Of a stretch of DNA of 64,000 nt, positions 49,014 to 63,864 are shown piece by piece; positions within the stretch are counted from its first letter, which is position 1, and every line of letters begins with the position of its first letter. Position numbers and translations under genes: made by a program. The DNA comes from Citromicrobium bathyomarinum (GTDB taxonomy: Bacteria > Pseudomonadota > Alphaproteobacteria > Sphingomonadales > Sphingomonadaceae): NCBI RefSeq assembly GCF_021021475.1, contig NZ_JAINWL010000001.1, forward strand, positions 1,426,001-1,490,000. Direction: 5' to 3'. The notes under the pieces are model-generated. The model had not been told where the DNA came from. It made no database searches and saw nothing but the letters and a program-made list of their open reading frames with translations.

Positions 49014-51953
49014 ATGAGCGACGATACAAAGAAGGATTGGCGGGACACCGTCTTCCTGCCGAAAACCGATTTTCCCATGAAAGCCGGGCTCCCGCAGAAG
49101 GAGCCGGGCATTCTGGCCGGGTGGCAGCAGGACGACCTGCACGGGACGCTGCGCGCCGAGCGTGCGGGCGCGGAAAAGTTCATCCTTCACGATGGCCCGC
49201 CCTACGCCAATGGCGACATTCACGTCGGCCACGCACTCAATCACATCCTCAAGGACATGGTCGTGCGCACGCAGACGCTGCTGGGCAAGGATGCGCCCTA
49301 CGTGCCCGGGTGGGACTGCCACGGCCTGCCGATCGAGTGGAAGGTCGAGGAACAGTACCGCAAGAAGAAGCTCAACAAGGACGAGGTTCCGCGCGCCGAG
49401 TTCCGCGCCGAATGCCGCGCCTATGCACAGAAATGGGTCGATACCCAGCGCCAGCAGCTGAAGCGCCTCGGCATCCTGGGCGACTGGGACAATCCCTACC
49501 TCACCATGGACTACGACAGCGAAGCGACGATCGTCGCCGAGCTGATGAAGTTCGCCGAAGCCGGCAATCTCTACCGCGGCTCCAAGCCGGTGATGTGGAG
49601 CCCGGTCGAAAAGACCGCGCTCGCCGAGGCCGAGGTCGAGTACGAGGACATCACCTCGACCCAAATCGACGTGGCGTTCGAGATCGTCGAATCGCCGAAT
49701 GTGCCTGAACTTGAGGGCGCGTATGCGGTGATCTGGACGACGACGCCGTGGACGATCCCGGTGAACCAGGCTTTGGCTTATGGGCCGGAGGTTGAGTATG
49801 TCCTGTTCGACTGTCTCGTGAACTACAATGATGACGAGATCGGCATGAACCTCCGGGAAGGCGGTCGGTATCTTGTCGCTGCTGGCTTGCTGGAGTCGGT
49901 AACGACCCGTCTTCGGCGCGACTGCGACCCACAAGAATTCGTGATAAGCTCGCGGCGAACCATAAAAGGCTCCGACCTCGCCGGAACCAAGGTCCGCCAC
50001 CCAATGCACACCCTCGGTGGGTTCTACGAAACTCTGCGCCCGATGCTGCCGGGCGATTTCGTCACCACCGACAGCGGCACCGGCCTCGTCCACATGTCGC
50101 CCGACCACGGCGAGGACGATTTCTACCTGTGCCGCGAGAACGGGATCGATCCGGTCTTCGCGGTCGATGATGGCGGCGTGTACCGCGACGACTGGCCGTG
50201 GCTGGGCGGAAATGACGAGCGCCGCCGCGCGGTCATCAACGCCAACTTCAACGCGCCCGACGGGCCGATCTGCACGGACCTGCGCGAAGCGGGTGCGCTG
50301 CTGAGCGCGAGCGCGGATTACAAGCACTCCTACCCGCACTCGTGGCGCTCCAAGGCGAAGATCATCTACCGCTGCACGCCGCAGTGGTTCGTGCCGATGG
50401 ATAAAGACCTTGGCGCCGAATCCCCCCTCCCCGACGGGGAGGGGTCGGGGGTGGGGTCTCCCACGCCCGCAGACGCCGAACACCCTCACCCAACCCTCTC
50501 CCTCAAGGGAGAGGGCTCGACCTTGCGGGAAAGGGCAATGTCCGAAATCGAACGCGTCCGCTTCGTGCCCGAGCGGGGGCGCAACCGTATCCGCGCGATG
50601 GTCGAAGGGCGGCCCGACTGGGTGCTGTCGCGCCAGCGCGCGTGGGGCGTGCCGATCACGCTGTTCGTCCGCAGGGACGGCACCTACCTGCAAGACGCTG
50701 CCGCGAACCAGCGCGTGGTCGATGCGATCCGCGAAGGCGGCGTCGATGCATGGGACGAGGCGCGCAAAGCCGAGTTCCTTGGAAGCGATCACAACCCCGA
50801 CGATTTCGAGATGGTGCACGACATCCTAGACGTGTGGTTCGATTCGGGCTGCACGCATGTCTTCGTGCTCGAAAGCGATCGCTGGCCGGCGCTGACCTGG
50901 CCCGCCAATCTCTACCTCGAAGGGTCCGACCAGCATCGCGGCTGGTTCCAGTCCTCGCTGCTCGAAAGCTGCGCCACGCGCGGCCGTGCGCCCTACGACC
51001 AGGTGCTGACCCATGGCTTCACCATGGACCAGAACGGGCGCAAGATGTCGAAGAGCCTCGGCAACACGGTCGACCCGCTCAAGATCGTCGACCAGTACGG
51101 TGCGGATATCCTGCGGCTGTGGGCGCTCAGTGTCGATTCGACGATGGACCACCGCATCGGCGACGAGATCCTGAAGGGCGTTGCCGACCAGTACCGCAAG
51201 CTGCGCAACACCTTCCGCTACCTGCTCGGCGCGCTGGAGGGCTACGAGGCCGACGAAGCCGTCGATTATGCCGAGATGCCCGAGCTGGAGCGCTACACGC
51301 TGCACAAGCTGGCCGAGCTCGACGGCAAGCTGCGGCAGGCAATCGCGGATTACGACTTCAACGAATACACCCGCCTGCTGACCGAGTTCGCGAACGAGGA
51401 CCTGTCCGCCTTCCTGTTCGATATCCGCAAGGACCGCCTCTATTGCGACGATCCGGCATGGGTCGAACGCCGCGCCTACCGCACCGTGCTCGACACGCTG
51501 TTCCACGCGCTGGTCCGCTATGCTGCGCCGGTGCTCGTCTTCACCGCCGAGGAAGTGTGGACCACCCGCTTCCCCGAGGCGAAGAGCATCCACCTCCAGC
51601 AGATCGACCCGCTTCCGGACAATTGGACAGACGAAGCGCTGGCAACGCGCTTCGCTGCGCTGCGCGAGCTTCGCGAGGATGTGACCGAGGCGATCGAGCC
51701 GCTGCGGCGCGAGAAGACCATCCGTTCCAGCAACGAAGCGGCGGTGTCCGTGCCCGCGCAGGCCGTGCCGGAAGGGTTCACCCGCGACGATCTTGCCGAG
51801 CTGTTCATCGCCGCGTCAGTCGCCACCCACGATGGCGAAGGGGTGACCGTAACCCGTTCCTCCTGTAACAAGTGTGGCCGTTGCTGGCGCCTCCTGCCGA
51901 GCGTGGCTGAGGATGGCGACCTGTGCAGTCGGTGCGAAGAGGTGGTGAACTGA
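49014..51953 (+). CDS. ileS: Isoleucyl-tRNA synthetase with an in-frame repeat insert
   Basis: This class I synthetase charges tRNA-Ile and edits Val. It has 979 residues. HVGH (70-73) and KMSKS (677-681) form the ATP site; WTTTPWTIPVNQAL lies in the CP1 editing domain, and CNKCGRCWR...CSRCEEV is a C-terminal zinc site. Start MSDDTKKDWRDTVFLPKTDF was chosen at 49014. Two oddities: bases about 49690-49990 (in CP1) use unusually AT-rich and rare codons, and about residues 471-501 are encoded by a double-hairpin repeat (50424-50516) between WFVPMDKDLG and TLRERAMSEIE. The frame stays open, so the protein is probably functional. lspA overlaps its stop (TGATG). Confidence 0.96.
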   Translation: MSDDTKKDWRDTVFLPKTDFPMKAGLPQKEPGILAGWQQDDLHGTLRAERAGAEKFILHDGPPYANGDIHVGHALNHILKDMVVRTQTLLGKDAPYVPGWDCHGLPIEWKVEEQYRKKKLNKDEVPRAEFRAECRAYAQKWVDTQRQQLKRLGILGDWDNPYLTMDYDSEATIVAELMKFAEAGNLYRGSKPVMWSPVEKTALAEAEVEYEDITSTQIDVAFEIVESPNVPELEGAYAVIWTTTPWTIPVNQALAYGPEVEYVLFDCLVNYNDDEIGMNLREGGRYLVAAGLLESVTTRLRRDCDPQEFVISSRRTIKGSDLAGTKVRHPMHTLGGFYETLRPMLPGDFVTTDSGTGLVHMSPDHGEDDFYLCRENGIDPVFAVDDGGVYRDDWPWLGGNDERRRAVINANFNAPDGPICTDLREAGALLSASADYKHSYPHSWRSKAKIIYRCTPQWFVPMDKDLGAESPLPDGEGSGVGSPTPADAEHPHPTLSLKGEGSTLRERAMSEIERVRFVPERGRNRIRAMVEGRPDWVLSRQRAWGVPITLFVRRDGTYLQDAAANQRVVDAIREGGVDAWDEARKAEFLGSDHNPDDFEMVHDILDVWFDSGCTHVFVLESDRWPALTWPANLYLEGSDQHRGWFQSSLLESCATRGRAPYDQVLTHGFTMDQNGRKMSKSLGNTVDPLKIVDQYGADILRLWALSVDSTMDHRIGDEILKGVADQYRKLRNTFRYLLGALEGYEADEAVDYAEMPELERYTLHKLAELDGKLRQAIADYDFNEYTRLLTEFANEDLSAFLFDIRKDRLYCDDPAWVERRAYRTVLDTLFHALVRYAAPVLVFTAEEVWTTRFPEAKSIHLQQIDPLPDNWTDEALATRFAALRELREDVTEAIEPLRREKTIRSSNEAAVSVPAQAVPEGFTRDDLAELFIAASVATHDGEGVTVTRSSCNKCGRCWRLLPSVAEDGDLCSRCEEVVN
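50424..50516. repeat. Palindromic repeat element inside ileS, read in frame
   Basis: Two hairpins flank a short spacer. CCCCTCCCC pairs with GGGGAGGGG across a three-base loop (50424-50444), and CCCTCTCCCT pairs with AGGGAGAGGG across two bases (50494-50515). The central bases GTCGGGGGTGGGG and ACCCTCACCCAACC are partly complementary as well. This is the form of repetitive intergenic elements frequent in proteobacteria. It encodes Pro/Gly/Ser/His-rich residues in ileS. Confidence 0.82.
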
Positions 51954-63741: not shown

Positions 63742-63780
63742 TGCATGGTCCGCGTTTCGCCTTCGGCCAAACGCTTGCAC

Positions 63781-63860
63781 GGTACCAGCCCACACCCCCA
63801 CCCGGCCAACCCGACAGGATAATTCCATGGGCTGGCCGGGTGGGGGTGTGGGCTGGTACC
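63781..63860. repeat. Perfect 28-bp inverted repeat
   Basis: Bases 63781-63808 and 63833-63860 are exact reverse complements (GGTACCAGCCCACACCCC and its complement, continuing to GGCCA). A 24-base loop lies between. It sits between erpA and xth, which read the same way. It is too long and lacks a T tract for a standard terminator, so it looks more like a palindromic repeat. Confidence 0.9.
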
Positions 63861-63864
63861 GCCA

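Follow-up and report, generated by a model that had tools for sequence, protein, structure and literature searches.

The palindromic elements of Rickettsia reportedly go back to work by Ogata et al. in 2000 and 2002, with an account for Wolbachia said to date from 2005. REPINs are composed of two inverted REPs around a spacer. As set out in the portions of PMC2229807 and PMC10969869 drawn on here, the Rickettsia elements are palindromes of ∼100–150 bp that lie in frame in conserved housekeeping genes, leaving the frame intact, and also between genes, and the element described below resembles them in this. REPINs accompany RAYT transposases (Bertels and Rainey 2011). Their inverted-pair architecture is also like that of the present element, and the intragenic ERIC/RU elements (Delihas 2007, again in part) are likewise small inverted-repeat elements fused in frame, but their hosts are enterobacterial and the likeness is one of description.

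In the parts of their paper that bear on this subject, Di Nocera et al. (2013; PMC3733652) described REPs with CGTC and GTAG tags inside ORFs, where dimers encode 20–30 residues. The REP-carrying ORFs named in these parts include tRNA synthetases of X. oryzae, E. litoralis, and S. alaskensis as well as truB genes, the hosts include Erythrobacter and Sphingopyxis, and the CGTC repeats are not linked to a transposase. The same parts report same-site insertion for recB of Xanthomonas, with other genes of that category having their inserts at different sites, and discuss neutral insertion in loops as well as possible effects. Since in-frame REPs in ORFs have been published to this extent, in-frame palindromes are known even in this bacterial group.

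In the window, by which is meant the whole stretch of 64,000 nucleotides of Citromicrobium bathyomarinum DNA that was analyzed, a palindromic element lies within the gene for isoleucyl-tRNA synthetase (IleRS), and in relatives the same loop of the enzyme is empty or, without loss of the frame, is filled by other families or in the other orientation. The reading preferred here, with a probability of about 0.86, is that a permissive loop of IleRS has received copies of palindromic elements of several families and that in-frame, tolerable copies survive.

The palindromic element in ileS and its copies in the genome

The ileS gene (49014..51953, + strand; start codon picked from an alignment) encodes a protein of 979 residues that matches Pfam PF00133 and PF08264 and scores 786.6 bits with the curated NCBI ileS model TIGR00392, as compared with a cut-off of 621.4 bits; the frame is intact through the repeat. 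The sequence-only reading had placed two tight hairpins within this frame, encoding about 31 residues, and both were located exactly where it had put them, with their stems confirmed, in a palindromic repeat element at 50424..50516 (+ strand) that has 93 bases or 31 codons (PLPDGEGSGVGSPTPADAEHPHPTLSLKGEG). The first hairpin (CCCCTCCCC GAC GGGGAGGGG; 50424..50444, + strand) has stem arms at 50424–50432 and 50436–50444 and a 3-base loop, and the second (50494..50515, + strand) has a 9-bp stem, with arms at 50494–50502 and 50507–50515, and a 4-base loop. A weaker middle stem (50446..50469, + strand) is predicted in the single copy. In the ORF from 49014 a codon begins at position 50424, and the 31 codons are free of stops. 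The RNA of 50418–50522 has a fold energy of −57.1 kcal/mol (z −2.50), but this alone is a modest argument for the hairpins because equally good folds are obtained with 2 of 200 dinucleotide shuffles.

The element lies in a variable loop of IleRS (codons 465–503, DLGAES...EGST; 50406..50522, + strand) that has 39 residues in the window and 7 in sister species (DLADGGT); the stretch across the insert reads DLGAESPLPDGEGSG...LSLKGEGSTLR. The loop is situated between PQWFVPMDK and the helix LRxxAxxEIxRV, presumably after the editing domain, and Leu504 and Arg505, just beyond it, are invariant across 44 aligned IleRS. In the alignment to 1FFY, which is taken here to be S. aureus IleRS, query residue 464 is followed by residue 503 with no additional chain residue in between; this comparison, made with 1FFY, agrees with the view of the sequence-only reading, put forward for E. 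coli, that ordinary IleRS is nearly without residues at this loop. In an AlphaFold model of IleRS (44 narrow relatives; mean pLDDT 68.8) the insert and the residues preceding it have values below 50, and the insert is modeled, at low confidence, with one 4-residue helix; the quality of the model is too low to locate the loop. The gene is seemingly single, as a 100-residue query from the loop region has one other genome match, at a repeat copy. A second stretch of IleRS that is poorly conserved across the 44 aligned relatives corresponds to about 49800–49950 in the window.

The element is a dispersed repeat. In a search of the 3.2-Mb genome a 181-base query finds 12 places, the ileS copy and 11 further, partial, matches. 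When at most two mismatches are allowed, the hairpin core CTCTCCCTNNAGGGAGAG occurs at 11 genome sites, compared with 0 for a reversed control; it should be noted that this pattern is palindromic, so that sites are seen on both strands, and that in some cases two sites belong to the two arms of a single element. By eye, the majority of the copies listed are intergenic or near gene ends. Seven of the other copies have loci, and among these L003 lies within trmD in frame, flanked by two stretches that match the Pfam tRNA (guanine-1) methyltransferase model; this trmD, with its in-frame insert, scores over the curated cut-off. Own-genome ORFs were screened for being open through a copy with at least 60 residues on each side, the family-library check being for the trmD ORF alone, and three more ORFs are open through copies (on the other strand at L003, at L004, and at L203) but by eye are off-frame translation. 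The combination of a stretch shared with relatives and a lack of copies in the genome was not found, because repeat copies exist elsewhere in the genome.

Two other structures in the window should be mentioned. A CGTC-tagged REP dimer (CGTCATTCCCGCGAAGGCGGGAATCC ... GACCCCCGCCTGCGCGGGGGTGACG) is present at 472–555, part of it being among the 37 CGTC-type matches in the genome, and a near-perfect inverted repeat is present at 63780–63861, with 33-base arms that are 97% complementary and 16 bases apart; by eye the latter lies between two ORFs and could be a palindromic element or a terminator.

States of the IleRS loop among relatives

Matches were obtained in 58 of the 60 relatives searched, and the 30 loci that were best by score were combined with 80 named loci (best 80 of 559) to give 110 ileS loci, or 103 distinct IleRS rows after merging of 7 pairs identical in core and loop. 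Among the matches listed, the loop is palindromic in 21 rows, empty (9 residues or fewer) in 21, and of GDFD type in 22, WEGEGG type in 24, SSLHS type in 4, GVGHA type in 3, and other types in 8, these classes, and the kinds distinguished below in glyS and trmD, being the author's own labels, assigned by motif, by eye, and by fold z-scores, and not published families. The 21 palindromic rows are made up of family 1 in forward (5) and reversed (5) orientation, family 2 (GTTCGGGCTGAGCCTGTCGAAG) in forward (5) and reversed (1) orientation, a third family (2), a CGTC type (2), and one further kind (1).

The suggestion that the insert might be present only in this genome did not hold, as a close version of it is found in genome G006, whose IleRS has the same core and loop as L053 (Citromicrobium sp. 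NP26), and other repeats occupy the same loop in many relatives. The nine genomes of the genus of the window have five loop states: family 1 forward, family 1 reversed, family 2, a non-palindromic insert, and empty. The loop is empty in three of them (G001, G005, and G004), and the sister species G001 and G005 read DKDLADGGTLR. The window's family is represented by 36 genomes in the relatives search, its own included, and by 29 in the ileS loci. Loops are short in five further members (G009, G019, G024, G031, and G032); in G014 (86% complete, 7% contamination) there is a stop within the match and the loop was not recovered, and G029 gave no ileS match in the relatives search. A genome from a different family (G037, locus L038) has a non-palindromic loop of 20 residues, so the longer loop is not strictly confined to the family of the window. 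In a class-wide sample of 86 genomes, 79 of which matched, the 70 other-family genomes with a match that spans the loop differ from the empty allele by −7 to +6 residues, 48 of them being 5 residues shorter; 4 of these 70 matches are weak (E above 1e-6) and could come from other synthetases. Eight further genomes match partly, including one of the window's family (G077). The filled loop is therefore, in this sample and apart from G037, a feature of the family of the window, and the ancestral state of the loop was likely empty.

The variety of states within one genus, and the recurrence of two non-palindromic types with conserved sequence in many species (the 22 GDFD and 24 WEGEGG rows of the 103), would fit an adaptive loop, in which the insert tunes IleRS in its tRNA handling, stability, or drug response, with selection drawing on the repeats as its raw material. 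This is nevertheless regarded as unlikely, since 21 of the 103 rows are empty, the length of the loop is near that of the empty allele in the 70 genomes of other families, and palindromic inserts of different families have no evident sequence in common. Constraint within the inserts also looks relaxed: in two insert-sharing pairs, the non-synonymous codon differences are 9/21 inside the insert and 14/69 in the flanks (Fisher p 0.048). The conserved non-palindromic inserts GDFDVAVPEGFGAAVA... (L057, L069, L074, and others) and WIEPKTRAEKGWENEGGAIDP... (L067, L088, L107, and others) have patchy distributions, with 11 and 13 changes on the tree described below, and are possibly domesticated old inserts or exchanged segments.

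Strong stems are kept in most of the palindromic inserts, with z-scores down to −9.6, as they might be if the hairpins acted in the mRNA, through pausing after the editing domain or through transcript stability, and the peptide was a by-product. That role appears improbable, in that stems are found to weaken while the frame stays (z −1.1 in G006 and −0.7 in its twin L053; −1.4 in G002 and −1.2 in its twin L052), many relatives are without a palindrome at the loop, and all Rfam families are below cut-off, the two matches being far under threshold (25.3 versus 84 bits and 22.2 versus 88 bits). On these sub-threshold scores a known RNA family was also rejected as the identity of the element.

Probable recurrent insertion, other genes, and reading frames

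On a maximum-likelihood tree of the loop-free IleRS protein (from a quick search, with 45 of its 100 inner branches starred), the minimum number of state changes, with gain and loss counted together, is 18 for palindromic versus non-palindromic loops, 20 when these are split by families, and 45 for all 13 loop types. The window IleRS groups with two empty-loop ones (support 96) and not with that of G006, despite the near-identical insert; loss or recombination has therefore also occurred, and the insertions are not exactly countable. This conflict of gene tree and loop type within the genus, and the insert that the window and G006 have in common, are what is to be expected if all of the inserts derive from one old insertion that has diverged or has been exchanged between species by ileS recombination. 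A single origin is contradicted for the whole set, though not for single pairs, and is considered very unlikely, as the families look unrelated, are found in both orientations, and match elsewhere in their own genomes. Family 2 has 18, 25, 40, 60, 62, and 71 matches in six genomes, family 1 reversed has 1–61 matches per genome in 11 genomes, and the CGTC dimer has 4–37 per genome in six genomes (37 in the window genome, strands counted apart); several genomes had only 40 candidates scored, and the matches overstate the number of copies, since a palindrome is hit on either strand and one arm can match alone. Furthermore, the family 1 insert in ileS of G033, from another genus, is as near to the glyS inserts of G001 and G005 (91 and 90%) as to a copy in G064 (91%) that by its position is the ileS insert of that genome, which indicates that site and sequence do not travel together.

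Inserts are present at corresponding sites of two other genes. In glyS (GlyRS beta), the segment from ARWLVEEGIV to ADMAEQAARL has at least 50 residues in 11 of 16 anchored loci, and no fewer than four repeat kinds are represented; the anchors had no match in 14 of the 30 loci surveyed. The glyS of the window genome has a CGTC-type repeat at this site and scores over the curated cut-off, and other sites in glyS are filled, by eye, in G001, G005, G006, and G064; three inserts were seen by eye in the glyS of L213. The CGTC-type inserts in window-genome glyS and E. sanguineus ileS are probably of the CGTC-tagged REP kind, and the gene list of PMC3733652 (Additional file 3) may include some of these ileS and glyS cases. 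In trmD, 9 of 18 anchored loci are filled, by three kinds (family 1 forward in G000, G005, G006, and G007; a reversed type in G001, G002, and G012; family 2 in G008 and G010), and 9 are short (G004, G009, G011, and six genomes from six other families); 2 of 20 loci are without anchors. Single cases, with Pfam domains on both sides of the insert, are found in mutL of G006 (L132), uvrA of G064 (L220), and hrpB of G005 (L224); these and the added glyS cases were met by chance, outside any systematic survey. Repair and tRNA genes recur among the hosts of in-frame inserts, as they do in the 2013 account of REP-carrying ORFs.

The frame in which inserts are read was studied with 32 inserts (21 from ileS and 11 from glyS, related ones included), 27 of which are open in two or more forward frames. 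Of these 27, 26 are read in the frame with the lowest net charge, with 1 tie (12.3 expected), and the used frame has the fewest Arg in 26, alternative frames being mostly Arg-rich. It should be noted that the net-charge measure is post hoc, adopted after hydropathy failed as a rule for frame survival, the most hydrophilic open frame being used in 9 of the 27 inserts as compared with 12.3 expected. In host coding windows of the 64-kb stretch, the used frame has the lowest net charge in 73 of 78, with 3 ties (34.8 expected), leaving out a piece of ribF read out of frame (7 stops; 5 windows, 0 lowest). Because host windows behave likewise, net charge says only that the inserts use ordinary protein-like frames; the net-charge argument, never the main one, is weakened by this control, and the frame use is read here as ordinary selection for protein-like frames, acting on mobile DNA.

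Some yeast mitochondria bypass hairpin-rich inserts (byps) in coding genes, a precedent for removal or bypass of the present element, by RNA excision or translational hopping, that would leave it absent from the protein. Such a process could do without an open frame and without a length divisible by three. However, no stop interrupts the frame of the loop region in any of the 110 ileS loci listed, including the best 80 of 559 (all found via protein similarity, so that frame-shifted ones would appear as misses), and the inserts use ordinary-looking frames. Absence of the insert from the protein is judged extremely unlikely.

If, as preferred here, the elements are copied into a permissive loop, they would be short, non-autonomous units of about 90–100 bp, with two inverted hairpins around a spacer and several families per genome, that are copied by some activity and inserted at many sites and in all frames, the genic ones being the survivors. 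Survivors would be those with a length that fits the frame, no stop, and a peptide that is rich in Pro, Gly, Glu, and Ser and not strongly basic, at a site, probably a surface loop, that tolerates about 30 extra residues. The peptide, including the 31-residue insert of the window, would be made as part of the protein and be close to neutral, and in time it may be lost, replaced, or retained. The data suggest that mobile DNA has been turned repeatedly into new protein segments. It is also, on balance, probable that in this bacterial family the loops of IleRS, GlyRS beta, and TrmD are recurrent sites at which unrelated palindromes are inserted, lost, and replaced, that the species in consequence differ in protein segments newly derived from mobile DNA, and that older conserved loop types may be domesticated descendants of such inserts.

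Comparison with known palindromic elements

In CGTC-tagged REPs, CGTC stands at one end of an 8–9-bp stem with a loop of 4–5 bases. The window element is not of this form: CGTC or its complement is found in 50401–50540 just at 50433, inside the first hairpin, and at 50472, in the spacer. GTAG is absent from 50401–50540. The Y1 transposase family PF01797 (RAYT) was found in 0 of the nine genomes of the genus (G000–G008) and in 1 of 18 of the family, with 5 of 14 reference genomes positive as a control. Mobilization by a RAYT is judged unlikely in the genus, PF01797 being absent from 9 of 9 genomes. With respect to MITEs, inverted ends are present, and filled and empty loops, the flanks of which have diverged, were compared by eye without a clear target-site duplication being seen.

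The occupation of the same site by unrelated repeat families looks new. In the literature searched, which was largely without subscription papers, nothing was found on unrelated families at the same loops of ileS, glyS, or trmD, although this is weak evidence. For these essential genes, free-living close relatives, several of them recorded as cultured strains, provide alleles that are empty, filled, or filled differently, and this set of alleles makes testable the neutrality of inserts, the filtering of inserts by frame and composition, and the feeding of new protein segments by mobile repeats. If the loops of the three enzymes are indeed such recurrent sites, their genes would represent an experiment of nature, still under way, on how protein segments arise, for which sister species supply paired alleles, one empty and one filled.

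The view of the sequence-only reading, that a repeat serving as part of the coding sequence of an essential enzyme resembles the Rickettsia palindromic elements, is supported by the data. At 93 bases, with two 9-bp stems, the window element is slightly short by comparison with these but is palindromic, and, like them, it is inserted in frame in conserved genes and has copies elsewhere. The likeness described here is one of structure and placement. Unlike the Rickettsia elements, those related to the window element are found in free-living, GC-rich hosts, and several families occupy one site across species.
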